A stretch of DNA of 64,000 nucleotides from a bacterium (GTDB taxonomy: Bacteria; UBP4; UBA4092; JAOAEQ01). Under the pieces are notes generated by a model that saw only the letters and a list, made by a program, of their open reading frames with translations, was not told the DNA's origin and did not search any database. A program made the position numbers and the translations under genes. The DNA lies in the NCBI GenBank assembly GCA_026416715.1, contig JAOAEQ010000001.1, forward strand, positions 62,001 to 126,000, in the 5' to 3' direction. Each line of letters starts with the position of its first letter. Position 1 is the first letter of the stretch. Of this stretch, positions 6,194-26,846 are shown piece after piece.

Positions 6194-6627
6194 GATGATA
6201 TTTCACCACGGTCGGCAATAAGTTTTGTTATCGTTAATGTTCGTGTCGTATTATCTTCAATCCAAGAAATCGTTAGGTTAATTTGTAGTAAATTATCGAG
6301 TTGAGTTGTAGCCACGTTCATTTGCCAAGTGAAATCCGGATAATCTGGTCCGAAATCACCAGTTCCGGATTGTAAAGCCAAAAAAGATTGCAATTCTATT
6401 TCTGTTATTTTTTGTTCCGCTAAAAATCGGGCTATCGTAGCTTTATCCGAGACACGAACCGCTCGTAATCCAATTGAAAATGCCTGAGATATCAATACCA
6501 ATCCGACAACAACTATTACCAGCGCTATGACCACTTCTAATAGGGTAAACCCGAATTCAGATTTCGGATTTTTACCCAACGAAATTTTAACGAAATCTGG
6601 GCGAATTCCAGCTATTGACTTTTTCAT
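6190..6627 (-). CDS. gspI: Minor pseudopilin GspI
   Basis: Pseudopilin of 145 residues. The prepilin motif F-G-F-T-L-L-E-V-V-I-A-L follows an unusually long leader of about 26 residues, then a hydrophobic helix. The F-x-x-x-L-R-A-V-R and A-R-F-L-A-E-Q-K-I-T-E-I-E patterns are characteristic of GspI. It overlaps gspH (4 bp) and gspJ (4 bp), consistent with a coupled set of tip pseudopilins. Confidence 0.86.
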   Translation of the reverse strand: MKKSIAGIRPDFVKISLGKNPKSEFGFTLLEVVIALVIVVVGLVLISQAFSIGLRAVRVSDKATIARFLAEQKITEIELQSFLALQSGTGDFGPDYPDFTWQMNVATTQLDNLLQINLTISWIEDNTTRTLTITKLIADRGEISS

Positions 6628-7644: not shown

Positions 7645-7670
7645 ACCTTCTCCTTTAGGTTTTCGAATGG

Positions 7671-7711
7671 GAGCAACTACGAACGAGATAATATCTCGTT
7701 CGTAGTTGCTC
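7671..7711. repeat. Perfect 19-bp inverted repeat in the gspF-gspG gap
   Basis: The arms 7671-7689 and 7693-7711 are exact reverse complements with a 3-nt centre (pairing can extend to 20 bp with a 1-nt centre). They fill most of the gap between the gspF stop and the gspG ribosome site. No T-run follows on the minus strand, so it is not a simple terminator. It could act as an mRNA stabiliser or processing hairpin that raises gspG output. Confidence 0.85.
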
Positions 7712-7712
7712 T

Positions 7713-8924: not shown

Positions 8925-9029
8925 AACAATTCAACCTACATCAGAATATCGAACATCGTACTCCGCAATACACTTCGCTAGAGTATATTTGTTTGATATT
9001 AGGATTTTGGGATTTCGTTGTATCGCAGT

Positions 9030-10706: not shown

Positions 10707-11015
10707 ATGTTAATATATACGGTATTTTGACCCAGCTATAGCTATTCGACGGAACAAATTTCTACCGAATGGTTAGTTCAATTTTAGTCGTAAGCTAAGA
10801 GGAAACAAATATCTCTTAATTCGTTCATTCCGCTTTGCTTCTACCCGTCTTCAGTTGAGGTTTCTTTCCGATTTATCAGGAGTATTCACTAACCATGACA
10901 TCGAAGACTTCGCCCCCGGTTAACCTTTGTTACTGCAGTATTTGGTACCTTGTGGTAAAAAAACACCTATCCTGTAGTTTTGGTTGGTTTGAAGTCTTCG
11001 ATATCTCAGTTTTCC
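10707..11015. other. Intergenic region upstream of gspE with a spaced inverted repeat
   Basis: About 309 bp without a credible gene, lying between the 3' end of the sigma-factor operon and gspE. A 12-bp inverted repeat has arms 10900-10911 and 10991-11002, each itself nearly palindromic around GAAGACTTC, with 79 bp between them. The promoter of the secretion operon should lie here, but I could not single out a convincing one. Confidence 0.5.
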
Positions 11016-11582
11016 TTAGTTATTGCGAGTTCGCCCGCCGCCGCTGTCTCGATTACCACGACCACCAAAACCACCTCGAGCGCCACCGAATCCCATACCA
11101 CCCATACCTAAACCCTGAGTAATAACGCCATTGAGGGTTAACTGCGCTTCTTGCTGGATAGTTAATACTGATTTTAAATTTGTTTCTAGCTCTTCAGTTT
11201 TCTTTTTGATTTCAGCAGCTTTCGCTTTGAGCCTATCTAAAGCTTGTTTAATCGCTTTATCCGATGCTTTACCCGATTCCAATAGATCGCGGAGATCCTG
11301 CCGTAATGGTTGTAATTCCTGCATCGAGCTAAACCGATAACTGATTAGCGCTTCGATTTTCGGCATAATCACTTTCGCTTCGTCTGCGGTTAGTTTAACA
11401 TTTGTGGTTGACCGTTCAATCATTCTCGCTTGAAATTGCGCAGGGTCAAATCCGCCCGGTCCGGGACGCTGAGTTTCGCTCGGTGGTGGTGGCGGCTCTT
11501 GCGCCATAACCAGCACAACCCCAATGAATAGACTGACGACTAAAACACTGGTTAAAACTTTTATGGTTCTATTACATTTCAT
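11016..11582 (-). CDS. Secreted helical LTxxQ-like protein with Gly-rich tail
   Basis: Predicted exported protein of 188 residues. The ATG at 11582 (M-K-C-N-R-T-I) has an excellent AAGGAG site 6 nt upstream and starts a clean signal peptide ending V-V-L-V-M-A-Q, so I prefer it to an upstream in-frame ATG. After a Pro-rich linker comes a helical, charged middle with L-T-A-D-E-A-K-V and L-T-I-Q-Q-E-A-Q-L, similar to the LTxxQ motifs of Spy/CpxP/ZraP-type periplasmic proteins. The last 35 residues are Gly/Arg-rich. It ends the ECF sigma operon, which suggests a sensory or chaperone role in the envelope. The family match is by pattern only. Confidence 0.6.
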   Translation of the reverse strand: MKCNRTIKVLTSVLVVSLFIGVVLVMAQEPPPPPSETQRPGPGGFDPAQFQARMIERSTTNVKLTADEAKVIMPKIEALISYRFSSMQELQPLRQDLRDLLESGKASDKAIKQALDRLKAKAAEIKKKTEELETNLKSVLTIQQEAQLTLNGVITQGLGMGGMGFGGARGGFGGRGNRDSGGGRTRNN

Positions 11583-11673
11583 AACGTTCTCCTTATTACA
11601 AGGTAGCGGAAATCCGAAGTACATAAGTTATCTCATAACCTTGCACCTCGTCCCTACCGTCTGGTATTGAATT

Positions 11674-12153
11674 TTACCGTGGAGGTGGGGGCAAAAAATC
11701 TCGGGATGGCGGTGGCAAAAACCGTCTGGTGGTATCATTTCCTAATCGTTGCCGCCGTTCCATCTCGAATTTCTTCCGCTCCATCTCCATTTTATCTCGA
11801 AACTGTTTATATTTAACCTTCTGTTCCGGGGTTAAGACCGACTCGATTTGGGTTTCCACCTCCTTCCGAATAGAATTTGCCTTCTCCCGGAACGGAGCTA
11901 ATTCTTGTTCAATCCGTTTCCGATTCGCTTCGAGAATATTTTCAATTTTATTCACTTGTTCTGGAGTTAAGTTTAGCTGCTGTTTCAAATCAGTTATAAA
12001 ATTTTGCGGTCTAGGTGGTGGTCCACCTCGTCCACGACGACGCTGTTCCATTTCATAGCGCTGATATACTTGTCCGCTAAGGAACCCTAAAACATCTCCA
12101 ATTAAAAACACTGCTATGATAAATACAATCCATTTAAGTTTAGGATTTGCCAT
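11674..12153 (-). CDS. Membrane-anchored Spy/CpxP-like (LTPEQ) periplasmic protein
   Basis: Protein of 159 residues with one N-terminal membrane anchor (residues 6-28), a short R/G/P linker and a helical domain. Two canonical L-T-P-E-Q motifs (about residues 61 and 108) define the Spy/CpxP/periplasmic metal-sensor group. The C-terminus is Arg/Pro-rich. The gene abuts the anti-sigma gene upstream (adjacent coordinates, no gap). Such proteins often modulate anti-sigma factors in response to envelope stress or metals. That role is inferred from position here. Confidence 0.72.
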   Translation of the reverse strand: MANPKLKWIVFIIAVFLIGDVLGFLSGQVYQRYEMEQRRRGRGGPPPRPQNFITDLKQQLNLTPEQVNKIENILEANRKRIEQELAPFREKANSIRKEVETQIESVLTPEQKVKYKQFRDKMEMERKKFEMERRQRLGNDTTRRFLPPPSRDFLPPPPR

Positions 12154-12621
12154 TTAGCTTGCTCCTTCCGTTTTCGTCTCGGAAGATGGAATAAGGATTT
12201 CTAACCCACTGCTCGCAGATAATTCAGTATCTTTGGTTAGATAACTATCAAGAGAAATATCAGTCTTTTCCCCAGGAGTTAGATATGACTGGGCAATGAA
12301 AACGAAAAATATCACTACGACTACCGTAGCTAATGCCGGAAGTGGGTTCGGTAACCATTTGAGAATTCGTTCATCTTCCCAAACATGGAGTGGTTGAAAC
12401 TGTTCAGTGCGTAATCTGTGAGAGATGGTTTGCCAGAGTTCAGGTTCCGGAGTTAATTCTGATTCTTCAGTATATACCTTATGGATTTTCTGCCATGCAG
12501 TAAGTTTATCGCGACATAGCGCGCATTCCGATAGATGTCGTTCAATCTTCCGACGTTTAGTTTCGGATAGTTCATTATCTACATATGCGGATAGATTTTT
12601 CAACCAATATTGATGTTTCAT
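12154..12621 (-). CDS. Zinc-finger anti-sigma factor (zf-HC2 type)
   Basis: Single-pass anti-sigma factor of 155 residues. The cytoplasmic N-terminus has the ASD/zf-HC2 signature: L-S-A-Y-V-D-N-E-L, then H-L-S-E-C-A-L-C near residue 29, giving the H-x3-C-x2-C zinc site. A transmembrane helix follows near residues 92-112 (A-L-A-T-V-V-V-V-I-F-F-V-F-I-A), and a short periplasmic tail. It lies 15 bp after the ECF sigma gene, the usual arrangement for a sigma/anti-sigma pair. Confidence 0.88.
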   Translation of the reverse strand: MKHQYWLKNLSAYVDNELSETKRRKIERHLSECALCRDKLTAWQKIHKVYTEESELTPEPELWQTISHRLRTEQFQPLHVWEDERILKWLPNPLPALATVVVVIFFVFIAQSYLTPGEKTDISLDSYLTKDTELSASSGLEILIPSSETKTEGAS

Positions 12622-12636
12622 AATGTAAGTTTAATC

Positions 12637-13227
12637 CTATGTCTTTATTTCATTATAAATCTCGGATAATTCCTGCTGGAGTAATTCGCGTGCGCGAAAT
12701 ATTCGGGATTTAACCGTTCCAATCCGAACGCCAAGAATTTGTCCGATTTCTGCGTAACTTAACTCTTCAATTTCGTTAAGATAAAACGTTTCAGCGAACT
12801 CCTCCGGTAATCGGTTAATCGCCTCTATAATCTTTTGACGTAATTCCCTCGTTGTATGTTCCTGTTCAGGATTTGGTTTTGTGTCCGGAATCCGTTCGAG
12901 GACGAATTCGTTTTCCGGAGACTCATGATCTTGTAAGGTATATATCACCGGACGATGCCTGCGTTGTCGCAGCATATCCCGGCATTGATTTATGGTTATC
13001 CGATATAGCCAGGTAGATATTTTCGACTGAACTTGAAAATTCTTTAGCCCACGAAACGCTTTAATAAATATTTCCTGGACCGCGTCGTTAGCCCACTCTT
13101 TATCTCTTAATAGTCGGCAGGATAAGGTATATACCTGACTAGAATATTTCTGATAGAACTCAGTATACGCGGATTCGTCGCCCGCCTGACATCGTTGAAT
13201 TAATTCTCGTTCCTTGGAGGTTTTCAA
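12637..13227 (-). CDS. ECF RNA polymerase sigma factor (RpoE-like)
   Basis: Extracytoplasmic-function sigma factor of 196 residues. Region 2 is clear (Y-T-L-S-C-R-L-L-R-D-K-E-W-A-N-D-A-V-Q-E then I-F-I-K-A-F-R-G-L; W-L-Y-R-I-T-I-N-Q-C-R-D). Region 4 ends with L-P-E-E-F-A-E-T-F-Y-L, then L-S-Y-A-E-I-G-Q-I-L-G-V-R-I-G-T-V-K-S-R-I-F-R-A. It heads a four-gene operon with its anti-sigma factor and two LTxxQ-type proteins. A matching ECF promoter lies 30 bp upstream, and another faces the efflux operon, so it is probably autoregulated. Confidence 0.94.
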   Translation of the reverse strand: MKTSKERELIQRCQAGDESAYTEFYQKYSSQVYTLSCRLLRDKEWANDAVQEIFIKAFRGLKNFQVQSKISTWLYRITINQCRDMLRQRRHRPVIYTLQDHESPENEFVLERIPDTKPNPEQEHTTRELRQKIIEAINRLPEEFAETFYLNEIEELSYAEIGQILGVRIGTVKSRIFRARELLQQELSEIYNEIKT

Positions 13228-13256
13228 TGCCGCTTTCTTTCCCTTATTTAATGTTA

Positions 13257-13282
13257 GACGAAATATTCCTGTCTTTGGTTCC
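13257..13282 (-). promoter_or_regulatory. ECF-type promoter of the sigma-factor operon
   Basis: Read on the minus strand: GGAAC (-35) at 13282-13278, a 17-bp spacer, then CGTC (-10) at 13260-13257. This is the classic group-IV sigma promoter pattern, and it lies 30 bp before the sigma gene start. Confidence 0.75.
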
Positions 13283-13367
13283 GGTAAAATAAGGCTAATT
13301 CCGCTACCAAATAAGCCCGGATCGCAGGTAAAGGAACATTTTCAGTTATAAATCTAGTCTGAGTTAG

Positions 13368-13393
13368 GGAACAATTATAAAAATAGATTCGTC
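13368..13393 (+). promoter_or_regulatory. ECF-type promoter of the tolC-macAB efflux operon
   Basis: GGAAC (-35) at 13368-13372, a 17-bp spacer and CGTC (-10) at 13390-13393, 80 bp before the GTG start of the TolC-like gene. It is identical in both boxes and spacer length to the divergent promoter of the sigma operon. Confidence 0.75.
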
Positions 13394-13472
13394 AAAATAG
13401 ATAATTTCGTTAAAAAAACAAATTCGATATACCTATACCAATATAGAGTTATAAGTCTAAGGAGTTCATTCA

Positions 13473-14723
13473 GTGAAACGACATGTTCTCTTTGTTATAC
13501 TCATGATTTTCTCAGCCGGATTTTATTCAAGTGGAGAAGGAACAAAACTATCCTTATCCGATTGTTTGGAAATAGCTCAAAAGAAACATCCATCCTTAAT
13601 TAGCGCTAAAGAAGCAATTACCATAGCCACTGCTCAACAAAAACAAACTATCTCCGCTTACTATCCACAGGTCAATGTTACCGCTCAATATAATCGAAAA
13701 GAAGTAGCTGAAACTAGTTCTGATGATGCATATGCCGGTTCTGCATCAGTTGCTCAACTTATCTATGATTTCGGGGTTACTCCGGCATTGATACGTCAGG
13801 CAAATGAGAATATTAATTTAAAACTAATCAACTACCTTGATACTGAATTATCTATATTTCTTAATGTGAAAACTGCTTATTATTCAGTGTTAGAGACACA
13901 AGAACTGGTAGCTATTGCCAAGGAATCGTTGGATAATGCGAAATTGCATTTAAAATTAGCTGAAAAATCTTACACCGTTGGAAAAGGAACAAAACTGGAT
14001 GTAATGAAAGCAGAAGTTGCGGTTGCAAATGCAGAATTAACTCTAGTTACTGCACTTAATAATCAAAAAATTGCTATTAGTACATTATTTAATGCCATGG
14101 GAGTAGAACCGAATACGGACGAACCCATCGAATTAATAGAAACGCTATTTTCCCCGATAACGACTGCATTATCAACGTTCATTACGCAAGCGCTACAAAA
14201 CCGACCTGATGTTCAAAGTCTAATCCATCAGCGAAAACAACTCCAAGCGAGTCTCTTGATTGCTGAACGCGGTCATTTACCGACGATTTCAGCTTCCGGA
14301 AGTTATAACCTATCGGGAAACGAGTTTCCGTTAACTGAATCGTGGACTGCTACACTTGGGCTGAACTTTTCGTTATATGACGGCTCTAAGAAAGAAGGGA
14401 AGATCGCAGAAGCTAAATCTGCTCTTCGTCAATTGACTGCGCAAGAGCAGAAAATGATACAGGATATCCAGCTAGAAGTAACCACGAATTATTTAAATAC
14501 GAAAAGCGAGCAGGAAAAAATCAATGCGGCACAAAAACTGGTTGACCAAGCTAAAGAGTCGCTCCGTCTTGCTACCAGTAGATATGAAAATGGTTTAGGT
14601 TCTATTCTCGATTTAACCGATGCACAGGTTGCGTATCGAGATGCGCGAGTTAGTCTGGCGCAAGCGATTTATGCGGCGCAGAGATCGTATGCGCAGCTAC
14701 AAAAATCTATCGGACAAAAATAA
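13473..14723 (+). CDS. TolC-family outer-membrane efflux channel
   Basis: Outer-membrane channel protein of 416 residues. It starts at GTG with AAGGAG 8 nt upstream and has a signal peptide of about 20 residues. The mature part begins L-S-L-S-D-C-L-E-I-A-Q-K-K-H-P-S, the usual first motif of outer-membrane efflux proteins. Two long helical repeats carry A-Y-Y-S-V-L-E-T-Q-E-L, A-E-K-S-Y-T-V-G-K-G-T-K-L-D-V near the middle and A-T-S-R-Y-E-N-G-L-G-S-I-L-D-L near the end. It is first in an operon with MacA/MacB-like genes, so it most likely forms the outer duct of that pump. Confidence 0.92.
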   Translation: MKRHVLFVILMIFSAGFYSSGEGTKLSLSDCLEIAQKKHPSLISAKEAITIATAQQKQTISAYYPQVNVTAQYNRKEVAETSSDDAYAGSASVAQLIYDFGVTPALIRQANENINLKLINYLDTELSIFLNVKTAYYSVLETQELVAIAKESLDNAKLHLKLAEKSYTVGKGTKLDVMKAEVAVANAELTLVTALNNQKIAISTLFNAMGVEPNTDEPIELIETLFSPITTALSTFITQALQNRPDVQSLIHQRKQLQASLLIAERGHLPTISASGSYNLSGNEFPLTESWTATLGLNFSLYDGSKKEGKIAEAKSALRQLTAQEQKMIQDIQLEVTTNYLNTKSEQEKINAAQKLVDQAKESLRLATSRYENGLGSILDLTDAQVAYRDARVSLAQAIYAAQRSYAQLQKSIGQK

Positions 14724-14764
14724 TCCCTAGAATTCGAGGTAAACAAAGTGAGGAGTATGAGAGA

Positions 14765-16135
14765 ATGAACAAAAAATACTATGCTTGGATTATTGGAATA
14801 ATCATATTTATTCTACTCGGGTATATTGGTTATCATTCATTATTCAGTAAACAGACGACCCCATCATTTAGAACCGTTACGGTTGACCGGGGAGATGTTG
14901 CTGAACTGGTTACCGCAACCGGAAAATTACAAGCTACCATTCAAGTTGATGTTGGAAGCCAAGTTTCAGGAACTATTCAAGCGATATATGTTGATTATAA
15001 TTCTAAGGTTAAAAAAGGTCAACTTATCGCACAGATTGACCCGCGAACATTTCAAACCCAACTCGCGCAAAATAAAGCGAGTTTAACTTCTGCACAAGCT
15101 GCGGAAAAAAGTGCTGTTGCTGCTTGGGAAACGGCGAAAGCTACTGTGGCGAATTTATACGCTTCGTTAACCAGCGCTAAAGCGAATGCACAGAAAGCAA
15201 AAGCTACCCTTGATAATGAAACGCGAAATTATGAACGATATAAAAAACTGCGTGCGGACGATTTAATTTCACAGAGTGATTTAGAAACAGCACAAACCAG
15301 TTTCGAAACTGCACAAGCAAATTTCCATGCCGCCTTAGCGCAAATAGCTTCTATTGAAGCCCAGGTGACAGCAGCAGAATCTGAAGTTCATGCGGCAAAA
15401 GCTAAAATTGATTCTGCTAACGCTGATGTCAGTAAGGCAAAGGCAGCGGTAGAACAATCAGAATTGAACTTGGATTTTACTCGCATTACTGCTCCGGTTA
15501 ACGGCACGGTTATTTCCAAAAATGTTGAAGTTGGGCAGACGGTTGCTGCAAGTCTATCCGCGCCGACTTTGTTTCAGATCGCAGAAGATTTAACCAAAAT
15601 GCAAGTAGTAGCTAGTATCGATGAAGCGGATGTCGGCAGAGTTAAAGAGGGACAGAAAGCAATTTTTACCGTTGATTCTTATCCGGACAAGAAGTTTGAA
15701 GGAACGGTTAGTCAAATCCGCTTTGAACCGATTATAGAATCGAACGTTGTCACCTATCAAGGAATAATAGATGTAGCTAATCCAGACTTAGAACTTAAAC
15801 CGGGGATGACCGCAAGTATTTCATTTGTTGTAGCAGAATCGAAAAATGTACTACGTGTACCTAATGCAGCGTTACAATTCAAACTCGCTACTTCTAGCTC
15901 AACGAAACCGGTATTTAATAGTGATTCTAAAACTGGTAGAGTGTATATCCTTGATGAAAAGAATCAGCCGAAAGAAGTAGTCGTTAAGGTTGGAGTATCT
16001 GACGGTACTAATACGGCAGTTGAAGGAGGACAATTGAAAGAAGGAGACAAGGTTATTGTCGGATATGCAACCCAGAAATCAACCGGTACAACCCCATCGC
16101 GTAGTCTCTTTGGAGGAGGACCACCGCCGCCATAA
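14765..16135 (+). CDS. macA: MacA-like periplasmic adaptor (HlyD family)
   Basis: Membrane-fusion protein of 456 residues. It has an N-terminal membrane anchor (residues 5-28) and a split biotinyl-lipoyl domain (V-G-S-Q-V-S-G-T-I-Q-A-I-Y-V-D-Y-N-S-K-V near 60, R-I-T-A-P-V-N-G-T-V-I-S-K-N-V near 240). Between the halves is an extended Ala-rich coiled coil (about 100-230), longer than in typical MacA. The beta-barrel part carries E-A-D-V-G-R-V-K-E-G-Q-K-A, and the protein ends in a Gly/Pro-rich tail. It bridges the ABC permease and the TolC-like channel encoded beside it. Confidence 0.9.
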   Translation: MNKKYYAWIIGIIIFILLGYIGYHSLFSKQTTPSFRTVTVDRGDVAELVTATGKLQATIQVDVGSQVSGTIQAIYVDYNSKVKKGQLIAQIDPRTFQTQLAQNKASLTSAQAAEKSAVAAWETAKATVANLYASLTSAKANAQKAKATLDNETRNYERYKKLRADDLISQSDLETAQTSFETAQANFHAALAQIASIEAQVTAAESEVHAAKAKIDSANADVSKAKAAVEQSELNLDFTRITAPVNGTVISKNVEVGQTVAASLSAPTLFQIAEDLTKMQVVASIDEADVGRVKEGQKAIFTVDSYPDKKFEGTVSQIRFEPIIESNVVTYQGIIDVANPDLELKPGMTASISFVVAESKNVLRVPNAALQFKLATSSSTKPVFNSDSKTGRVYILDEKNQPKEVVVKVGVSDGTNTAVEGGQLKEGDKVIVGYATQKSTGTTPSRSLFGGGPPPP

Positions 16136-16193
16136 CTAATACTATTACCATCCGGGAACATGAGGTGGGATTGATAAATGTTTTATCTTGTTA

Positions 16194-16221
16194 TTTCGAA
16201 TTTCGATATTCGAAATTCGTA
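16194..16221. repeat. Heptanucleotide tract (4 units) ahead of the ABC ATPase gene
   Basis: Four 7-mers in a row: TTTCGAA, TTTCGAT, ATTCGAA, ATTCGTA. The same bases also form a 10-bp inverted repeat (16197-16206 with 16210-16219). See the window-wide heptamer finding. Confidence 0.75.
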
Positions 16222-16238
16222 TCAATAATTTGACCGTT

Positions 16239-17009
16239 ATGCCGCATCTAATTGAAGTAGACCGTTTAACCAAAATATATCAACTAGGTGAAGTGCAGGT
16301 ACATGCGCTTCGTGGAATTAATGTTCAAATCGATACCGGTGAATTTGTTGCCATCATGGGCCCTTCCGGTTCAGGAAAATCAACGTTCATGAATATTCTT
16401 GGTTGTTTAGACCAACCGACAACCGGAAAGTACCGACTTGATGGCACCGATGTTTCCCAGTTAACTCGGAATGCATTAGCTGAAATTAGAAATAAACGAA
16501 TTGGGTTTGTATTTCAGCAGTTTAATTTATTATCGCGTACCACCGCGTTAGAAAATGTCGAACTCCCATTGCTATATAATGGTACTACTAACAAAGAACG
16601 ATATGACCGGGCGATGCATGCTTTGGAAATTGTCGGATTACACGAGCGCGCCTATCATTATCCGAACCAACTTTCCGGCGGACAACAGCAACGAGTAGCT
16701 ATTGCGCGCGCCTTAGTTAATTCTCCATCGATTATTCTAGCTGATGAACCAACCGGTAATCTTGATTCTCGGACAAGTATTGAAATTATGGGAATATTCC
16801 AAAAGTTGAATAGTCAAAATCATATCACCATCGTTATTGTTACCCATGAACGTGATATTGCCCAGTATGCCCAACGGGTTGTTTATTTTAAAGACGGTAA
16901 AATTAAATATGATAAACCGGTAGATGAGCATCTTGATGCAGTAACCGTTCTTGAACAGATGCCGGCATCGACCGATGACGAAATGGAGTTACCGGTCAGT
17001 AACAGGTAA
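16239..17009 (+). CDS. ABC transporter ATPase, MacB/LolD type
   Basis: ATPase subunit of about 256 residues for the adjacent permease. Walker A is G-P-S-G-S-G-K-S-T, the Q-loop is F-V-F-Q-Q-F-N-L-L, the ABC signature is [14 protein letters not shown], and Walker B is [12 protein letters not shown]. The switch His lies in V-T-H-E-R. The ATG at 16239 ([14 protein letters not shown]) starts the family consensus. A longer TTG start would translate the heptamer tract and is unlikely. In classic MacB, ATPase and permease are one chain; here they are separate genes. Confidence 0.93.
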
Positions 17010-17105
17010 AAAGCTATGGTTAGGGTTATGATATCCGTATCGGTAAAAAAGTACGTTGTTCGGATTTAACAATACAATAATACGCAGATTATACTTATAA
17101 TTAAT

Positions 17106-18323
17106 ATGAAAATAGGAATAACGATTTCAATCGCATATCATGCTCTCGGCCGAAATCGCACGCGAACAGCATTGACTATGTTAGGGATAATTATCGGGGT
17201 CGCTGCGGTGATAATTATGGTTGGTGTTGGACAAGGAGCGAAACAATCTATTGAAACCCAAATCGCCAGTATGGGGACGAATATGATTGTCGTTTTACCC
17301 GGAAGTATGAAATCCGGCGGGATGCGGATGGGGTTCGGCAGCGTTCAAACCTTAGTCCCGTCGGATGTAGATGCGATTATCCGCGAATGCCCGTCAGTAT
17401 TATATGCTTCTCCAATGGTAAATGCTGCAGCGCAAGTTGTATATAAAAATCAAAACTGGAATACGACGTTAAATGGGGTATCTCCTTCATTTTTATCTAT
17501 ACGCGACTGGCAGCTTAGTGCTGGCAATGTATTTACGGATAATGATGTAAAATCAGCTAGTAAAGTCTGTTTACTCGGTTACGATGTCGCATCCAGTTTA
17601 TTTGGAAACGAGTTGCCAATAGGGAAAACAATTCGAATTCAGAAGATACCGTTCCGGGTAATTGGTGTTCTTGTAGCTCGGGGTAAATCAGGAATGGGGC
17701 GGAGTCAAGACGATGTTATTTTAATGCCATATACAACATTAATGAAACGGATTTTAAATCAGTCGTATATTTCGTTAGCTTTTGTTTCCGCTATATCGCA
17801 GAATCAAATGAAAGATGCTCAAGCGGAAATAGCAGTATTACTTCGGCAACGACACCGCATTAAACCGGGTGCAGATGATGATTTTTCAATAGGGAGTCAA
17901 GCTGATATTACCGCTATGGCAACATCAACTTCAACGACATTAACTATTCTTCTCGGGAGCGTAGCTTCAATTTCTCTAATCGTTGGCGGAATTGGAATAA
18001 TGAATATTATGCTGGTTTCCGTTCGCGAACGGACTCGGGAAATTGGGATTCGCATGGCGGTTGGTGCGAAAAATCGAGATATTCTACTACAATTTTTGAT
18101 TGAAGCGATTGTATTAAGTGCGTTAGGCGGATTCATTGGCATTATCTTAGGTGTTACCGGAGGAATGCTTATATCACGATATGCTCAGTTACCTACGGTT
18201 ATTTCTCCTATTTCTATTCTCATCTCTATCGGTTTTGCAGCCGGGATCGGCATTTTTTTCGGGTTTTATCCCGCACGAACTGCTGCTCGACTGAATCCAA
18301 TCGAAGCACTCCGCTACGAATAA
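17106..18323 (+). CDS. macB: MacB-like ABC permease (FtsX fold)
   Basis: Permease of 405 residues with the MacB topology. A first membrane helix (R-T-A-L-T-M-L-G-I-I-I-G-V-A-A-V) is followed by a large periplasmic domain (about 50-270), then three helices in the FtsX domain. That domain has the hallmark sequence G-I-G-I-M-N-I-M-L-V-S-V-R-E-R-T-R-E-I-G followed by I-R-M-A-V-G-A, and ends G-F-Y-P-A-R-T-A-A-R-L-N-P-I-E-A-L-R-Y-E. With the ATPase, MacA-like adaptor and TolC-like channel it completes a tripartite exporter. Substrate unknown: macrolide-like compounds, peptides or lipids are all possible. Confidence 0.94.
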   Translation: MKIGITISIAYHALGRNRTRTALTMLGIIIGVAAVIIMVGVGQGAKQSIETQIASMGTNMIVVLPGSMKSGGMRMGFGSVQTLVPSDVDAIIRECPSVLYASPMVNAAAQVVYKNQNWNTTLNGVSPSFLSIRDWQLSAGNVFTDNDVKSASKVCLLGYDVASSLFGNELPIGKTIRIQKIPFRVIGVLVARGKSGMGRSQDDVILMPYTTLMKRILNQSYISLAFVSAISQNQMKDAQAEIAVLLRQRHRIKPGADDDFSIGSQADITAMATSTSTTLTILLGSVASISLIVGGIGIMNIMLVSVRERTREIGIRMAVGAKNRDILLQFLIEAIVLSALGGFIGIILGVTGGMLISRYAQLPTVISPISILISIGFAAGIGIFFGFYPARTAARLNPIEALRYE

Positions 18324-20066: not shown

Positions 20067-20640
20067 ATGAATCTAAATCCACAGCATTTACAGAGAGAGA
20101 GAGAGAGAACATTGCCCTTGTTGCGGTCAACCGTTGCCGAAAAGAAAGGAAGACCGCCAGATGACCAGACTTCGCCAAGGCTTCGTCCGGCAGGGACAGC
20201 AACTTCCGTCAATTTCTCTAGCAGCCCAATTCGTACTTGAATCTGCTCTCGATTATTTCAGAACTAATTACACTAACCCTACTTGCACCATAGAAACCTG
20301 CGCAATCGCATTATCGATAACCGAACGAAGATTAGAACAAATATTCCACGATATTCTTGGGGTAACTCCGAAATATTGCTTAATCCGAATGCGGATTAAA
20401 ACCGCGCTATGGTTAAAACAGAATAATCCGAGGTTGCGCATTAAAGACGTTTATCAAAATAGCGGATTTAATAATCAATCAACCTTTGCTCGCGAGTTTA
20501 TGAAGATACTTCATCCAAAACGAAATATTCGGCAGATTCATCATATTAAATATCTGCTCAATAGACCGAATCATCTAAAAGTCATTTGCAATTGCCCGAA
20601 ATGTAATGAATGTGACCAATGGCTATATTCAGGCATCTAA
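20067..20640 (+). CDS. AraC-type regulator with Cys motifs, frame broken at an AG tract
   Basis: The ATG at 20067 has AAGGAG 9 nt upstream and reads M-N-L-N-P-Q-H-L-Q into an (AG)8 run, after which that frame ends without homology. The next frame, entered in the same tract, reads E-H-C-P-C-C-G-Q-P-L-P and then a full AraC-like helix-turn-helix domain (I-E-T-C-A-I-A-L-S-I-T-E-R-R-L-E-Q-I-F, then I-K-D-V-Y-Q-N-S-G-F-N-N-Q-S-T-F-A-R-E-F). It ends with C-N-C-P-K-C-N-E-C. That second frame has a stop at 20074-20076 and no proper start of its own. One extra AG unit would join the halves into about 191 residues. It is either a phase-variable gene in the off state, a recent frameshift or an assembly error. 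Confidence 0.7.
20092..20108 (+). repeat. (AG)8 dinucleotide tract inside the regulator reading frame
   Basis: Seventeen bases of pure AG repeat start 25 nt after the ATG at 20067. Adding 2 bp (or removing 1) restores the frame to the zinc-motif and helix-turn-helix part. Confidence 0.9.
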
Positions 20641-20658: not shown

Positions 20659-20761
20659 ATCGCCGTAATCTTTGATTTCCATCGCTGTAATCGGATGTTT
20701 TTATCACCGTAATCTTGATTTCATAATCTGTATAATCGGTTGTTCATAAATCGCGGTAATC
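20659..20761 (+). promoter_or_regulatory. Five 12-bp boxes at 22-24 bp spacing
   Basis: Boxes of the form ATCnCnGTAATC start at 20659, 20681, 20703, 20726 (diverged) and 20750. The spacing of about two helical turns places them on one face of the DNA, upstream of a strong promoter. Two more boxes of the same type lie at 19799 and 19822. Confidence 0.65.
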
Positions 20762-20769
20762 ATCTTTTC

Positions 20770-20810
20770 TTCGCATTTTGCGCTATTTATTTCGCATTCT
20801 GCGCTATTTT
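20770..20810 (+). repeat. Two tandem 20-bp direct repeats next to the promoter
   Basis: TTCGCATTTTGCGCTATTTA at 20770-20789 and a near copy (two mismatches) at 20791-20810, offset by 21 bp. They end 5 bp before the -35 box. Confidence 0.8.
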
Positions 20811-20815
20811 TATTC

Positions 20816-20845
20816 TTGACAGAAGATTCTTAGAAGAATTAAAAT
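20816..20845 (+). promoter_or_regulatory. Sigma-70-type promoter with operator palindrome in the spacer
   Basis: TTGACA at 20816-20821, an 18-bp spacer and TAAAAT at 20840-20845. Inside the spacer is a perfect 6-bp palindrome, ATTCTT-AG-AAGAAT (20826-20839). It lies 57 bp before the TPR gene start. Confidence 0.7.
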
Positions 20846-20902
20846 ACTCCTAGAAAAATTATCAACTTTCCGGTCTCGTTCAAGGGAAAAGGAGGTTTGG
20901 GT

Positions 20903-22231
20903 ATGTGTCAGAAAAATCATTATCTTCTTCTGTCAATAGTAATAATAGCAACGTATGTTCTCGTATCGATAGTTTTAGCGGGAGAAACCGACACTACCTT
21001 ATTCATTCAGGCAAAAGCTTCTCTCGATGCAATACAATATCAACAAGCATTAGAGCAATTTCAAGCATTTATCAGCCAAAACCCAGCAAGCGCTGATGTG
21101 CCGGAAGCTATGTATTATGTTGGAAAATGTCAGTATCATTTAAAGAATTATAACCAAGCGACGGCTGTTTTTGTCCAGTTTCTTACGAGTTATCCTTATC
21201 TTATAAAGACATTTGCCAACACATATCGTTTGTTAGGTTATTCTTATAGCAAACTAAACCAGGATAATTTAGCAATTGTTTCATTTGAAAAGTTCATAGA
21301 AGCGAATCCGAAGTCGCCCTACTGCAAGGATGCGTTATTGCGTATTGCGAACATTATGGTCCGGAATCCAGCAACATATTCTCTCGAAGACCAGATTGCA
21401 ACTTACCAGAAGATTATTGATTTATATCCTAATTCTACTGAAGCAAAAGAAGCTGAACAGCGAATCGCTGGATTAAATGAACGGACAAGTAGAGGTGTCA
21501 GTTTAGCAATCCAAGATTATAATTCGGTTTATATTTCAGCATGGCGTAAAATTGAAAAAGGTAAACGATCCGAAGCTATTACTGAATTTAATAAAATAAT
21601 AAACGATTCAACCGCTACTTCGCTGGCAAAGGCGCATGCGCAATTACAAAAAGCGGGGTTATTAATTGAAATTGCTAAAGGTGAAGATGTCTCTACGCCA
21701 ATATCAGACATTACAACTCGTGATGCTATTCTTGTTCAAGCCCGCCAAGAATGTAAAAAAGTAAAAGACTATTGTAACGATAAAACAGTTGCGGAAAGTG
21801 ATATTCCATCAATTGCCAATAAAATGTATTATGAAACGTATTGGTTACAAAGAACTCTCTCCGAAGATTGTATTATCAATTTTATTTCTCAAGAACTTAC
21901 CCAAGCGTCTTCATTAACTAATTTTGGTTTGGTTCTTGAGACATTTGTTCCATTTTTCCAGAATCTGGAAAGGCATTTGGAAGCTATTAGAATCCTCGAA
22001 AAGGTTATTCTTCAGCAAAAAAATAATCCATATATAATAGTTTGTGAGGTCAAGTTACTTACTTTATATAGAAACGTTGGAGCAATGGAACAAGTAAATA
22101 ATTTGGTGGAAGAAATGACTAAAAAATACATAGATAATCCTATTTACCAAAATAACACAGAATTTAAAAATATCATAGTAGAATTAAAAAATCAGATTTT
22201 ATATTTGAAAAAATCTCAACAAACCGGTTAG
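20903..22231 (+). CDS. Exported TPR protein, BamD/YbgF-like
   Basis: Predicted exported protein of 442 residues. The ATG at 20903 has GGAGG 7 nt upstream. An N-terminal hydrophobic segment (about residues 7-28) is followed by tetratricopeptide repeats of the BamD/YbgF kind: Y-Q-Q-A-L-E-Q-F-Q-A-F-I, V-P-E-A-M-Y-Y-V-G-K-C-Q-Y, Y-N-Q-A-T-A-V-F-V-Q-F-L, then L-A-I-V-S-F-E-K-F-I. The C-terminal half is helical without a family I recognise. It is the first gene after the elaborate promoter and leads the GG-leader peptide locus, so it may be a periplasmic scaffold for that system. Confidence 0.75.
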   Translation: MCQKNHYLLLSIVIIATYVLVSIVLAGETDTTLFIQAKASLDAIQYQQALEQFQAFISQNPASADVPEAMYYVGKCQYHLKNYNQATAVFVQFLTSYPYLIKTFANTYRLLGYSYSKLNQDNLAIVSFEKFIEANPKSPYCKDALLRIANIMVRNPATYSLEDQIATYQKIIDLYPNSTEAKEAEQRIAGLNERTSRGVSLAIQDYNSVYISAWRKIEKGKRSEAITEFNKIINDSTATSLAKAHAQLQKAGLLIEIAKGEDVSTPISDITTRDAILVQARQECKKVKDYCNDKTVAESDIPSIANKMYYETYWLQRTLSEDCIINFISQELTQASSLTNFGLVLETFVPFFQNLERHLEAIRILEKVILQQKNNPYIIVCEVKLLTLYRNVGAMEQVNNLVEEMTKKYIDNPIYQNNTEFKNIIVELKNQILYLKKSQQTG

Positions 22232-22521
22232 AAAAAATAAATCAATAAAAAGGATAATAAAATATTTATCCCGGATTTTGCACTAGAGAATGCTGGTGGA
22301 ATAATTATTTTGCATAGCCAATTGAATCTCTTGGTGTTGTAGAACAATATTTCTATTGCGTTGCAATAGAAATGCACTTTGTACTGTTACGAATTCTGCC
22401 AGTAGTGACGAGGTTTTCTCGCCCGAAAGTGTGGTTCTGATATATGCTCGAGGGCAGGGCAACCCTGCCTATACCTCTTCCTAATGCAAAATTTGGGTTT
22501 ATTGAAAAGAGGTAAAATCCT
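22232..22521. other. Gap with two perfect hairpins before the Cys-rich gene
   Basis: About 290 bp without a gene. An 11-bp perfect stem has arms 22349-22359 and 22363-22373 with a GTT loop. A GC-rich 7-bp stem, GGCAGGG-CAA-CCCTGCC, lies at 22453-22469. Neither is followed by a T-run, so they look like REP-type palindromes or RNA processing sites rather than terminators. Confidence 0.7.
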
Positions 22522-23112
22522 ATGAATAAAAGAAACTATTATATAATAATATTATTATTAGCATTTAGTTTATTTTTTCTATTAATACTCTTTTTTTTCT
22601 CGCGAGAATTCAATAACAAAACAGATAGAGAAATCTTAAGTATTAGCGATTTGAAGGCATTAACTAGCCATTCTGAGATTAAGTCAAATCCATCATCAAC
22701 TATACTTACGACAAATGAGATGAAAAAAGTAATTGGATTTGGTGGATATGCTCGATGCACTCGTCGACGATGTCCTGGTCCAACCCCGCCAACCGATCAT
22801 CCATATCCTCAGCCTGATCCGGAGGGAGCTAATTGCACACTTTGTACAGGTGCACGTCAACCTGAGGAACCACCTAACGGTGGATATAATTGTATTTTTC
22901 ATCCTTCTGCGAGGTGGACTTGTGGTGAAGCAGGCAGTGTATTATATAATTGTGGAATAGGCTACAGAGGTAGAATCAACCTCCAGACCGGTGTATGCGA
23001 AAATATTGGGGATCCGTATGGTTATAGAAATTGCACAAATTTATATAGCGAATGTGATGAATGGTATTGGAATGGCTACGAATGGATACGTTATCATTAT
23101 CCAAATCCATAA
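22522..23112 (+). CDS. Membrane-anchored Cys-rich protein with double-glycine leader motif
   Basis: Protein of 196 residues. A strong membrane helix (residues 6-26) is followed by a polar linker and L-T-T-N-E-M-K-K-V-I-G-F-G-G at 62-75, closely resembling GG-type bacteriocin or peptide leaders (hydrophobic positions L62, M67, V70 and the GG site). All ten cysteines lie after the GG site, an even number as for five disulfides. The part after GG is about 121 residues, rich in Pro, Gly, Tyr and Trp. A C39 peptidase is encoded two genes downstream. Unlike normal GG peptides it has an N-terminal anchor, so cleavage would release it outside the cytoplasm. An AGAGG site precedes the ATG. No known family recognised. 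Confidence 0.75.
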   Translation: MNKRNYYIIILLLAFSLFFLLILFFFSREFNNKTDREILSISDLKALTSHSEIKSNPSSTILTTNEMKKVIGFGGYARCTRRRCPGPTPPTDHPYPQPDPEGANCTLCTGARQPEEPPNGGYNCIFHPSARWTCGEAGSVLYNCGIGYRGRINLQTGVCENIGDPYGYRNCTNLYSECDEWYWNGYEWIRYHYPNP

Positions 23113-23144
23113 ATCGAATAACAAATTTGGTACGGGAGGTAAAT

Positions 23145-24101
23145 ATGAAAATATTTTATAGTAAAATAGCAAATTTAAGATTTAGAATAATACCCTTATT
23201 ATTTTTATTGTTTTGGGGTATTCTTTTTTTCAGTATAGCTCAAGGGCAATCTTTGAATCTTATTCCAAAAGATATAATTGAAGGCGTTGAAAATAACGAT
23301 TCATTTGTAAAAGATATAACCGTTTTATATTCGGTTACACTCGGTGAACCAAATAAGAATGTAAGTCTGCCTTTCACACCGCCAAGTGCCAATAAACAAT
23401 TGATACTTTGGGTAAGGAAAGATGGTAAATTTTTAAAAGAATGGTTTGAAATTTCTAGAGGAAATGATGGGAGATTGGTCGGACCATTCCACCATATATC
23501 TATTTTTAATAATGGTACAACTTTTAATTGTCAAGGTCCATATTATAGTTGTAGTACGATTTTCTCTCCTATATTTGATATTAATCTCGAAATAAATCAG
23601 ATAGAACACTTCTTTTTGCGCATCTGGAAAAACACGCCTATCAAAGAAATTATCAATCAAGCGCGGACTAAAACAATTGTAAGTACAGAGCAAATAAAAG
23701 GCGAATGGGTCTCCCGTCTTAAAATTACAGATATACCTGAAATGCATATCTTACCGAAAGCATCGGCAGAAATTACGTTTAATTTAAACAAAGGATATCT
23801 ACCTATAGAAACTATTATTTTCAGTGAAGATAAACTATTCGCCAAATATGAAATAGAGGAAGCCAAAGAAATTGCACCGGGAGTATGGTTCCCTCAAAAA
23901 GCCAAAGCTTATTCATTCAGAATTCCATATGTACCACCTGCCAATTATGAAGTAATTAATGTTGCAATAAATAAAAATATAAACGATAGTTTATTTTCAT
24001 TATCTCCAACTTCCGCTGGGACAAGACAATCATTTTTCGAACAAACAGTTGGGATAAGTTACGATCAAGCTTTAGATCTATTTAATCAGATTTCCTTTTA
24101 G
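23145..24101 (+). CDS. Exported protein, possibly LolA/LolB-like, of the peptide locus
   Basis: Predicted exported protein of 318 residues, starting at the ATG at 23145, which has GGGAGGT upstream. A signal peptide covers about residues 13-38 (ending S-I-A-Q-G-Q-S). The body is beta-rich, with F-N-C-Q-G-P-Y-Y-S-C (a possible disulfide) and, near residue 230, K-Y-E-I-E-E-A-K-E-I-A-P-G-V-W-F-P-Q-K-A. This last pattern recalls the outer-membrane lipoprotein-sorting (LolA-like) fold seen in planctomycete-type secreted proteins. Function unknown. It sits between the Cys-rich protein and the C39 fusion and is followed by a terminator. Confidence 0.65.
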   Translation: MKIFYSKIANLRFRIIPLLFLLFWGILFFSIAQGQSLNLIPKDIIEGVENNDSFVKDITVLYSVTLGEPNKNVSLPFTPPSANKQLILWVRKDGKFLKEWFEISRGNDGRLVGPFHHISIFNNGTTFNCQGPYYSCSTIFSPIFDINLEINQIEHFFLRIWKNTPIKEIINQARTKTIVSTEQIKGEWVSRLKITDIPEMHILPKASAEITFNLNKGYLPIETIIFSEDKLFAKYEIEEAKEIAPGVWFPQKAKAYSFRIPYVPPANYEVINVAINKNINDSLFSLSPTSAGTRQSFFEQTVGISYDQALDLFNQISF

Positions 24102-24125
24102 TTTTTTCGACACTTTAGAATTTAT

Positions 24126-24165
24126 AAAAAGGTGATATTAGAATTAATTTAGTATCACCTTTTTT
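24126..24165 (+). terminator. Intrinsic terminator/attenuator before the C39 fusion gene
   Basis: A perfect 12-bp stem (24126-24137 with 24153-24164) is flanked by A and T runs, so it could work in both directions. It lies 14 bp before the ATG of the C39 gene. Confidence 0.85.
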
Positions 24166-24179
24166 ATTATGAATATCTT

Positions 24180-26846
24180 ATGGATAAAAAATTTATCATT
24201 ATTATTCTCATTTTTATTATATCATTAGTATTAAGTAATCTTACTTACTCCATCTCTTCTGCTCAAAGTACCGCAAATGAAATACTGGCCACCGGTTTGG
24301 GCATAAAATTCAATTGCGGAATAAATTGTTTCTATGAAGTATGTAAGCTTTTAAATGAGCCAATAGATTTGAATAATATAGAACAATTATTTAATGGAAA
24401 GAATGACAAGATTAGCATGTACGACCTTTATATTGCAGCGCAGAGAAAAGGATTAATTGCTATTGGTAAACGTATAAACTATGAAGGGCTTTTAAAGCTA
24501 AAAAGCCCGGCCATTGCATATGTTCAAGATAATCATTTCCTTGTAATCGAACGATCAGTTGGGAATAAGCTTAGAATTATTGATCCACCGCAGCTTCCCA
24601 CTCTAGTAACGAAAGAGCAATTTGAATCTATCTGGCAAGGTGAAGTGTTAGTGATTTCAAAACCACTGGCAGAAAAACATCAGAAAAAACAAAAAATGGC
24701 AAATGCGCCAGATATCGAATTTGAAGAGATGGAATATGATTTTGGTATACTCGAACAAGAGCATAAAGCTACACATGTTTTCAGGTTTAATAATCGTGGT
24801 AACAAGGAGTTAGAGATTTCTCGGGTGCGTTCGAGCTGTGGGTATGCAGCTGTACTTTTAACGAAGAATAAACTTGCTCCGGGACAAACTGGCAAAATTA
24901 AGGTAAGTTATGATTCTGGTTTGCGTCAAGGAGAAGAATCGCATCTTATAATTATTAGTTCAAACGACCCGGATGAACCGCATATCTATTTAACAATAGC
25001 TGCAAAAATAAAACCGGGTACAAATGTCTTTCCGAGTCGGGTGTTTTTAGGCGATATCTTTAACAAGAATACTGTACAAAAGAAAATTTATCTAGCTAAC
25101 CCTGAAGATAAACAAGTAAAAGTAACAAAATTGACTACTTCTTCGGCTCATATTTTTGCAGCAATCGATACTATCGAAACAAAAGGCACTGTTATTTCAG
25201 TTTTTCTTAGACCAAGATTGATATTAGGAAAATTTAACGAAAAACTCGTTATTGCTACTGATAATCAACAGAAACCCAAAATTGAAGTTCCAATAGAAGG
25301 AAATATCATCGGAGATATTATTGCTGTTCCATCAAAATTCTTCTTCGGACTGCTCAAAGAAGGGGAAGAATTAACCCGTAAAATTGCTTTGACCAGTGAA
25401 GGTCGCACGAAATTTACCATTAAAAAGATTGAAACTGAGGTAAATGAAACTATAGCAGATGTCGAACACATTACAACCAAGATAATCAAAGAGCAAGAGC
25501 TTTATGAACTCAGTTTGACATTGAAACCGAAAATTAAAAGTGGTAGAATTCAAGGAAAAGTTTTAGTTAATACCGATAATCTAGTTCAACCAAGGATAGA
25601 AATTCCTATCTATGCGTTAGTGCATTCCGGATTGCCAATTGCTAGTGAATCTACAATCCAAACACTTAGCCCAAAAACAGATATTAAGCCGATAGAATTA
25701 GTATTCTTTTATGTCGCAAATTGTCACGAGTGTCCAGAAGTCAAAGATGAACTATTGCCAAAGCTAAAAGGGAAATACGGTGCTTTACTTACAATAAAGA
25801 GCTATGATATTTCTGATATTAAGAATTATGAGCTATTGATTCAATATGAGGATAAGTACAAAAATACCGATAATGTCTCGATGAAACTCTTTATTGGCGA
25901 TAAATGTCTAGCAGGGAAGACTGCAATACTTAAGGAACTAGAAGCGCTGATTCAGAAACAATTGGAAGTTACTTCTGGAAACAAGACGGTGGGTTTGACC
26001 CACCTTCATCAAGATTTTGGTGGGCAGGTAAATCAAACCACAACCTCAAATTTACCTGTTGTCACGTCAATTGACCGGCTGACAGCCCCGAATAAAAGCT
26101 CGGGATATTTGACCAGCGATGTTTCTTCCGTTCCAGCAGTGATTGTTAATCGATTTCAGGGATTCAATGCTTTTCTGATTGCTAGCGCTGGACTATTAGA
26201 CGGGCTTAATCCCTGTGCTTTTACTACTATTGTCTTCTTTATTTCACTTCTAGCGCTAGTTGGGAAAACCAAGCCGGAACTGTTAACTGTTGGCATCTTT
26301 TTCACCCTTGCGGTTTTTCTAACGTATCTCCTCCTTGGATTAGGTGCGTTGCAGGTTCTTAGTAGTTTACGCAGCATTCCTTTAGTTCATCATATTCTGC
26401 GATTTGGAGTAGCAGAAATAGCATTCATTTTTGCAGTATTGAGTGGATACGATATTGTCGTTTATCTAAGAACCAAACAGACTAATAATATGACCATGCA
26501 GCTACCAAAAGGCATCAAAGAAAAAATACATCAGGTAATGCGGGAAAAATTTAAATTAAAAGGATTAGTTGTTGCAACATTTACAACCGGTATTTTAGTT
26601 TCACTCCTTGAATCAGTTTGCACCGGGCAGGTTTATCTGCCGACTTTGGTTTTTATGACCAAAGACTCTACCGTCAAATTCAAAGCATATAGCTATCTTT
26701 TGCTATATAACCTTATGTTCATCATCCCGCTAGTTATTATATTCCTGTTGGCATTATTTGGTGTTACTTCAACTTGGTCTGCTTCACTTACCCGCAGGAA
26801 TCTGGTTATCTCTAAAAGTCTACTTGTCCTGCTTTTCCTAACCTAA
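24180..26846 (+). CDS. C39 peptidase / DUF1573 / thioredoxin-like / DsbD-like fusion protein
   Basis: Protein of 888 residues. After an N-terminal signal or anchor (5-29) comes a C39-type peptidase domain (about 35-160). Its catalytic triad is intact: C46 in F-N-C-G-I-N-C, H119 in D-N-H-F-L-V-I, D135 in I-I-D-P, with the ComA-like spacing of H to D. A DUF1573 Ig-like domain (about 175-275) and further beta domains follow, then a thioredoxin-like part with C-H-E-C-P near 515. From about 660 to the end is a DsbD/CcdA-like membrane domain with G-L-N-P-C-A-F and S-V-C-T-G-Q-V-Y. A palindromic element is translated in frame between the last two parts. It probably cleaves and oxidises the neighbouring Cys-rich protein on the outer face of the membrane. 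No good ribosome site is visible. Confidence 0.82.
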   Translation: MDKKFIIIILIFIISLVLSNLTYSISSAQSTANEILATGLGIKFNCGINCFYEVCKLLNEPIDLNNIEQLFNGKNDKISMYDLYIAAQRKGLIAIGKRINYEGLLKLKSPAIAYVQDNHFLVIERSVGNKLRIIDPPQLPTLVTKEQFESIWQGEVLVISKPLAEKHQKKQKMANAPDIEFEEMEYDFGILEQEHKATHVFRFNNRGNKELEISRVRSSCGYAAVLLTKNKLAPGQTGKIKVSYDSGLRQGEESHLIIISSNDPDEPHIYLTIAAKIKPGTNVFPSRVFLGDIFNKNTVQKKIYLANPEDKQVKVTKLTTSSAHIFAAIDTIETKGTVISVFLRPRLILGKFNEKLVIATDNQQKPKIEVPIEGNIIGDIIAVPSKFFFGLLKEGEELTRKIALTSEGRTKFTIKKIETEVNETIADVEHITTKIIKEQELYELSLTLKPKIKSGRIQGKVLVNTDNLVQPRIEIPIYALVHSGLPIASESTIQTLSPKTDIKPIELVFFYVANCHECPEVKDELLPKLKGKYGALLTIKSYDISDIKNYELLIQYEDKYKNTDNVSMKLFIGDKCLAGKTAILKELEALIQKQLEVTSGNKTVGLTHLHQDFGGQVNQTTTSNLPVVTSIDRLTAPNKSSGYLTSDVSSVPAVIVNRFQGFNAFLIASAGLLDGLNPCAFTTIVFFISLLALVGKTKPELLTVGIFFTLAVFLTYLLLGLGALQVLSSLRSIPLVHHILRFGVAEIAFIFAVLSGYDIVVYLRTKQTNNMTMQLPKGIKEKIHQVMREKFKLKGLVVATFTTGILVSLLESVCTGQVYLPTLVFMTKDSTVKFKAYSYLLLYNLMFIIPLVIIFLLALFGVTSTWSASLTRRNLVISKSLLVLLFLT
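25991..26039 (+). repeat. 49-bp palindromic element inserted in frame in the C39 fusion gene
   Basis: Ends GGTTTGA and TCAAACC are inverted, and inner arms CCCACC and GGTGGG form a hairpin. It adds about 16 residues (V-G-L-T-H-L-H-Q-D-F-G-G-Q) to a linker. It differs from the copy at 26881-26929 at 6 of 49 positions. Confidence 0.8.

Follow-up and report, generated by a model that had tools for sequence, protein, structure and literature searches.

In this work we analyzed a 64,000-nucleotide stretch of bacterial DNA (the window; contig JAOAEQ010000001.1, positions 62,001 to 126,000), in which the gene of a cysteine-rich protein (22522..23112, + strand) lies close to the gene of an exported C39 peptidase fusion (24180..26846, + strand). 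Removal of GG-type leaders by C39 peptidases is known as a cytoplasmic step of ATP-binding cassette (ABC) export. From the sequences, we consider it probable that in this system precursors exported by the Sec pathway carry a GG-type leader that is cut by an exported C39 peptidase outside the cytoplasm. A first-pass annotation of the window had described the two open reading frames (ORFs), together with the genes of a tetratricopeptide repeat (TPR) protein and a LolA-like protein, and this gene layout was confirmed.

The cysteine-rich protein, the proposed substrate, has 196 amino acids. It consists of a hydrophobic segment at about residues 6 to 27 (a signal anchor), a linker, the segment LTTNEMKKVIGFGG, and a mature part with all ten cysteines, at residues 79, 84, 105, 108, 124, 134, 144, 159, 171, and 178; every cysteine is past the leader, as had been claimed. 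The leader, L62-TTNEMKKVIG-F73 (22705..22740, + strand), is in the canonical C39 register, with L62 at −12, E66 at −8, M67 at −7, V70 at −4, G72 at −2, and F73 at −1. It has the residues expected of a GG leader at five positions (hydrophobic at −12, E/D/Q at −8, L/M/I at −7, V/L/I at −4, and G/A at −2) and lacks the expected G, A, or S at −1. The predicted cut falls after F73, whose codon ends at 22740, and before G74 and G75. This is two residues earlier than the cut after G75 in the first-pass annotation, which the register does not support: with a cut there, −4 would be G and −7 would be K.

When a leave-one-out matrix was built from the other substrates, it selected exactly LTTNEMKKVIGF in the window protein with a score of 12.3. 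This score was reached by none of 500 shuffled sequences and by 4 of 349 control ORFs with N-terminal hydrophobic segments. Among the four controls, at least two (L165 and L172) resemble ABC-type GG-leader proteins, and L062 is an exported RHS-like protein adjoining a different non-ABC C39 gene. Searches by sequence gave no reliable relative of the window protein, and the seven pattern matches in the window genome, among them EMKKVTGG at the C terminus of a YbaB-like protein, included none that resembled a second exported GG-leader protein.

The proposed leader peptidase is an exported C39-DUF1573-thioredoxin-DsbD fusion of 888 amino acids. A signal-like N-terminal segment is followed by the C39 domain (residues 45 to 161; 24312..24662, + strand; Pfam, 2.1e-19) and DUF1573 (1e-29), the first DUF1573 domain being at residues 179 to 276 (24714..25007, + strand). 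The protein has no ABC membrane or ATPase domains and contains the DUF1573, thioredoxin-like, and DsbD-like parts instead. The C39 triad reported earlier, C46-H119-D135, is indeed intact. The C39 profile matched the peptidase structures of PCAT1, ComA, and LahT in the PDB (2.9e-15 to 7e-13) and, more weakly, HlyB (2.5e-7 to 4e-6). A fold search with a model of the C39-DUF1573 part returned Ig-like matches from DUF1573 and was uninformative for C39. In the aligned C39 members, the Cys and His are invariant, and the Asp is kept or replaced by Asn (L056). Six residues ahead of the Cys, this subfamily has other residues (L40 in the window) in place of the Gln that the ABC-type C39s in the same searches retain. 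In the LahT structure, the Gln is 4.3 Å from the oxyanion position; the His was suggested to be able to serve, and the oxyanion role of the Gln was doubted (PMC6363468). The absence of the Gln therefore does not exclude C39 activity.

We then compared the window with 386 genomes, one of which (G001) is of the same class as the window genome. A single-protein scan of the genome contigs found no relative, and profile searches succeeded instead. A search with the C39-DUF1573 part covered both domains in G115, G145, G317, and G040 and gave a C39-only match in G001; a C39 profile was used afterwards. In three of these five genomes, a LolA-like gene lies beside the gene of a small exported cysteine-rich protein whose leader follows the canonical register. 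The leaders are LSVKEMSLVKAG followed by C in G115, ISMEDMSMTIGG followed by C in G145, and LSDMEMKGVLGG in G001. G317 encodes a cysteine-rich protein with a weak leader (QISEIWGA), and its thioredoxin-DsbD gene is separate. In G001 (L059), the order AraC, TPR, cysteine-rich, LolA-like, C39, DUF1573 is that of the window, with C39 and DUF1573 in separate frames.

The C39 profile found the subfamily in 34 of the 85 genomes of Ca. Poribacteria, the phylum of G317 and G040, and in further genomes of the G145 phylum. Overall, the non-ABC C39 subfamily is present in at least four phyla (Ca. Poribacteria being one), usually with a LolA-like gene, and pairing with a leader protein is seen in G001 (L059), G115 (L055), the G145 phylum (L056 and L162 to L164), and at many loci in Ca. 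Poribacteria. The three strong loci L162 to L164 were found after the motif had been defined, and all three have a leader-bearing cysteine-rich partner and a LolA-like gene; their leaders are LSIREMASFVGG followed by C, LSDREMVKLTGG, and LTISEMETLVGG followed by QC. Since the remaining non-ABC C39 genes among the 386 genomes (in G334, G125, G371, and others) have neither a LolA-like gene nor an exported leader partner, the pairing belongs to the C39 subfamily of the window. DUF1573-thioredoxin-DsbD fusions without C39 are common. NVEALA-type proteins of Bacteroidota were considered as a possible parallel, with no paper on them in the literature searched; a DUF1573 locus of Parabacteroides contains no C39 and no cysteine-rich gene.

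The leaders share the register L−12, E/Q−8, M−7, L/V/I−4, and G−2. A strict regular expression was applied to 257 ORFs having an N-terminal hydrophobic segment. It matched 14, each of them an exported partner near a C39 gene and 13 of them cysteine-rich. As the expression was derived from the same data, the leave-one-out matrix was used in addition. It re-found 20 of 20 motifs at the expected place, and 13 of them outscored all 349 control ORFs. Among the 21 members, −12 is L or I in 20, −7 is M or I and −2 is G or A in all, and −1 is G, A, S, or T in 19 (G, A, or S in 17 and T in two), the others being L in L124 and F in the window. By hydropathy score and by eye, an N-terminal hydrophobic segment stands ahead of the leader in every member. 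In LahT, leader binding relies on hydrophobic residues at −4, −7, and −12, and the cut follows GG, GA, or GS (PMC6363468); these positions agree in the proteins described here, and so do the GG, GA, and GS ends. TIGR04149, an independently made model of GG-leader ribosomally synthesized and posttranslationally modified peptides (RiPPs), weakly matches the leaders of L056, L163, and L164, below its cut-off.

The number of cysteines counted past the leader is even in 18 of the 21 proteins (p 7e-4), and the number in the whole precursors is even in 13 of 21. The mature parts resemble one another no more than shuffled sequences do (identity, 0.29 versus 0.27). The proteins are therefore united by the leader and the cysteines, and their mature regions are unrelated. 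Such divergence would be in keeping with a role as secreted antagonists or surface proteins.

The catalytic Cys and the leader vary together. Among the non-ABC C39 loci, a leader partner is present at 22 of the 32 that have the catalytic Cys and at none of the 17 that lack it (Fisher test, 1.6e-6, a value that overstates independence), with the provisos that partners were identified partly by their own leader, that L130 and L175 are from another C39 group, that the C39 of L104 is interrupted near the active site, and that the substrate frame of L103 is broken. The partners of the intact C39 loci are exported and nearly always cysteine-rich. In an orthologous trio, L122 (HACGATSL) and L124 (HTCGAASL) retain the Cys and have the leaders LSEIEMLATQGA and LRENEMLTTQGL, respectively. 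In L123 (HASGAVSL), the catalytic Cys is replaced by Ser, and the cysteine-rich neighbour goes directly from the signal segment to the cysteine region, the leader being deleted. A second cluster in G001 (L060) has no C39 and a cysteine-rich protein without a leader. Thus, enzyme and leader tag appear to be lost together. The first-pass annotation had named leaderless homologues and degenerate C39 domains as evidence that would speak against the pairing. Both do exist, and they are found where C39 is missing (L060), where its Cys is lost (L123), or where C39 is degenerate and has no leader partner (the 17 loci above). Because of this distribution, they support the pairing. Poribacterial C39-like domains without the catalytic Cys (L114 to L121 and L125 to L129), which have no cysteines in the frame read, have LamG-like neighbours in place of a leader partner.

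Several observations weigh against leader cleavage by these C39 domains. The window leader ends in GF and not in GG, GA, or GS; since the leader of L124 ends in GL, a bulky −1 residue is not unique to the window. The leader of L057 is weak (leave-one-out score, 2.2), and those of L055 and L098 are modest. The Gln that normally precedes the C39 Cys is missing from the subfamily. The degenerate C39 loci are mostly from one poribacterial clade, and most of the genomes compared are draft assemblies. The pairing proposed in the first-pass annotation recurs across phyla, with both partners exported and no ABC exporter of its own, but it is not universal, as no partner is visible in the stretch read at 10 of the 32 loci with an intact C39, some of which lie at contig ends.

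The missing Gln and the F at −1 would also fit a C39 domain that binds the leader without cutting it, acting as a chaperone or tether with the leader as a docking tag. Such domains exist in HlyB-type exporters, and HlyB is among the weaker profile matches. We consider this explanation unlikely. All aligned members have the catalytic Cys and His, with the Asp kept or Asn. The Cys would be unneeded for pure docking, and L123 lost it along with the leader while otherwise retaining the domain. Furthermore, the cysteine number becomes even only once the leader is left out of the count.

Leader cleavage was also weighed against the idea that C39 acts as a transferase, in which the leader acyl-enzyme would be passed to another nucleophile, or the product handed to a lipid or glycan attachment machine, with the LolA-like and STT3-like neighbours in the route. 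The LolA-like gene is almost always there, STT3/PglB-type genes adjoin several poribacterial loci, and the L107 substrate has six N-x-S/T sequons. However, the 27 sequons in the substrates are a modest excess over the 19.4 expected from composition, the window locus has no adjoining STT3 gene (STT3 is found only elsewhere in the genome), and by C39 chemistry the acyl group would end up on the leader and not on the product. A transferase is thus improbable, and with these sequon numbers N-glycosylation is not claimed as a main theme of the substrates. The STT3/PglB-type genes adjoining poribacterial C39 genes are at 6340-8979 (− strand) in L107 and 6231-8807 (+ strand) in L108 (Pfam STT3, 2.7e-18 and 4e-12), and similar large membrane proteins were recognized by eye or with a purpose-built profile in L096, L097, L100, L106, and L109.

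Single degenerate motifs do arise by chance, as among the seven genome matches noted above, but a chance leader-like string between unrelated neighbours is very hard to reconcile with the prospective finds, the leave-one-out statistics, and the co-loss and is already contradicted by the recurrence. Taken together, the sequences strongly suggest that the leader is cleaved in the C39/cysteine-rich pairs.

In the pathway we propose, Sec would insert the precursor through the signal anchor at its N terminus (many relatives have a cleavable signal peptide instead), placing the leader and the cysteine-rich part in the periplasm. Cleavage would be periplasmic because, by inspection, both proteins have Sec-type N termini. 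The exported C39 domain would bind the leader helix via L−12, M−7, and V−4 and cut after −1 (F73 in the window), which would free the cysteine-rich protein from the membrane, and the freed part would fold with all cysteines paired. A redox arm would be formed by DUF1573 together with the thioredoxin-like and DsbD-like parts; it most likely carries reducing power out of the cytoplasm and would keep the peptidase Cys reduced, correct wrong disulfides, or both. The first-pass annotation had assigned disulfide formation to the DsbD/thioredoxin part. DsbD-type domains transfer reducing equivalents outward, and delivery of reductant therefore fits better: the arm more likely protects the peptidase Cys or corrects disulfides than forms them.

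The thioredoxin-like domain contains a CHEC motif (residues 515 to 518; 25722..25733, + strand), and in L163 a stand-alone CEHC protein precedes C39. The DsbD/CcdA-like membrane domain (26157..26843, + strand; relatives, L003 to L006) has two cysteines, C679 (NPCAF) and C814 (CTGQVYLP), that relatives also have; with CHEC, these are the features of a DsbD-type thiol transporter. The NPCA and CTGQ cysteines and the periplasmic CxxC domain are like those of the DsbD/ScsB- and CcdA-type transporters, whereas fusion to a C39 peptidase sets the window protein apart. In six relatives (L007, L015, L031, L034, L040, and L054), an in-frame TGA stands in place of the codon for the first Cys in the CGC motif of DUF1573, which is consistent with selenocysteine. 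This position matches C220 of the window protein, which aligns with Cys or putative TGA-coded selenocysteine in relatives, and the LolA-C39-DUF1573 fusion of G040 (L015/L058) carries the TGA. DUF1573 has been listed as a selenoprotein family with a UGC motif (PMC9312934), and together with the TGA codons this makes DUF1573 itself a redox suspect.

Among known systems, the PCAT/AMS exporters (ComA, PCAT1, LahT, and CvaB) are alike in the C39 profile and in the leader register (hydrophobic at −12, −7, and −4; small at −2 and −1). They differ in that the peptidase described here has no membrane/ATPase transporter and no Gln before the Cys, both partners would be exported by Sec-type N termini, the leader is behind a signal peptide or anchor, and LolA-like and redox partners are present instead. 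Similarly, a classical GG-leader peptide has an N-terminal leader and no Sec signal, whereas here a hydrophobic segment precedes the leader. The TIGR04149 peptides of Bacteroidota, RiPPs modified by radical S-adenosylmethionine (SAM) enzymes, have the weakly similar leaders mentioned above and no signal peptide or anchor ahead of them as found here. No radical SAM gene was recognized by eye in the stretches read, in which no systematic search was made.

The closest precedent for the location is FapD, a C39 peptidase that acts in the periplasm as part of the Fap amyloid system of Pseudomonas, has a Sec signal peptide, and needs its catalytic Cys in vivo; its target is unclear, the Fap proteins have no canonical C39 sequence, and the authors described the class as yet to be characterized (PMC5557850). 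The likeness lies in a C39 domain with a Sec signal peptide in the periplasm; the window fusion scores 15.7 against the NCBIfam C39_FapD cut-off of 330. We know of no DUF1573, DsbD, or LolA-like partner of FapD. In the literature searched, which covered open papers and not subscription papers or preprints, FapD was the sole periplasmic C39 peptidase, and no description was found of C39 with DUF1573, LolA, Sec signal peptides, or cysteine-rich substrates as a system. The pairing described here is real and recurrent, and we take it for an apparently undescribed form of GG-leader/C39 processing that has been relocated beyond the inner membrane. On a broader view, whose chances we put at about even, there would be a general periplasmic GG-leader pathway in several phyla, not tied to ABC export, in which one portable C39 leader serves unrelated Sec-exported products (cysteine-rich proteins and possibly glycoproteins and RHS-like giants), and a C39 peptidase with its own transmembrane electron supply cuts it off outside the cytoplasm.

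With enzyme and candidate substrate adjacent, a known leader register, and natural loss-of-function pairs, the specificity of a periplasmic C39 peptidase is directly testable, as is the question of why a Cys protease is coupled to DsbD. The leader is also a handle for finding fast-evolving cysteine-rich secreted proteins that homology searches miss, for example in Poribacteria.

The LolA-like exported protein (320 amino acids; 23145..24101, + strand) had no Pfam match. A fold search with a structure model of moderate quality (PDB 3bk5, E 6.6e-7; 3buu, 2.4e-6; mean predicted local distance difference test score, 61.5) assigns it to the LolA-like fold, and the alignment shows conserved WFP and N...F motifs. 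Its gene is a near-constant companion of the C39 subfamily, and constancy and fold suggest a probable escort role, with the precursor, the released protein, or a lipid as cargo. The exported TPR protein (444 amino acids; 20897..22231, + strand) has CpoB/BamD-like repeats. Its gene is at the same position in L059 of G001, the sole genome of the same class, where the AraC-type gene is syntenic too. Both companions noted in the first-pass annotation were therefore found again, and we infer accessory roles for them.

Upstream of the TPR gene are an AraC-type helix-turn-helix (HTH) protein, a possible regulator (20134..20640, + strand; Pfam HTH_18, 1.1e-12), whose counterpart in G001 is likewise 5′ of the TPR gene, and a promoter-like site, TTGACA-18-TAAAAT (20816..20845, + strand), which matches the consensus at 11 of 12 positions; the total count of promoter-like sites was no higher than in shuffled sequences. 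Between the LolA-like and C39 genes, a strong hairpin followed by a U run (24118..24180, + strand; −19.8 kcal/mol; z, −6.4) may be a terminator or attenuator. As an attenuator, it would set the enzyme level below the substrate level. About 2.5 kb upstream, at 13473-18323, the window contains genes of a TolC/MacA/MacB-like tripartite exporter. MacB-type pumps accept periplasmic substrates, and this exporter is a possible exit route for the mature cysteine-rich protein; no such genes were seen near the other loci read. PADLOC gave no match for an anti-phage defence role.

Other genes were observed around the C39 loci of other genomes. In the G145 phylum, the C39 and GG-leader genes are separated by genes of a BlaI-type repressor and a BlaR1-type M56 peptidase (L056, L162, and L164), which suggests inducible control at these loci. 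In Poribacteria, a protein of about 230 to 290 amino acids with one N-terminal membrane helix is encoded beside the substrate or C39 gene (L096, L101, L103, L108, L109, and L111); the L108 copy had no Pfam match. A second non-ABC C39 context consists of giant exported proteins (about 1260 to more than 2500 amino acids) in G025, G001, G088, and G277 (L061 and L201 to L205). Most of them have TPR-like repeats at the N terminus, and by eye at least some are RHS/YD-like. At L062 (G267), a non-ABC C39 gene (7727-8272) adjoins the gene (8377-15147) of an exported protein of 2257 amino acids with the leader-like string LDENEMKDVVGK after its signal segment, and the same leader is possibly in wider use. 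Finally, a short repeat, TTGACCCACCTTC..TCAAGA..GGTGG, has just two copies in the window genome, one at 25994 in the coding sequence between the thioredoxin and DsbD parts of the fusion and the other at 26884, directly past its stop codon.

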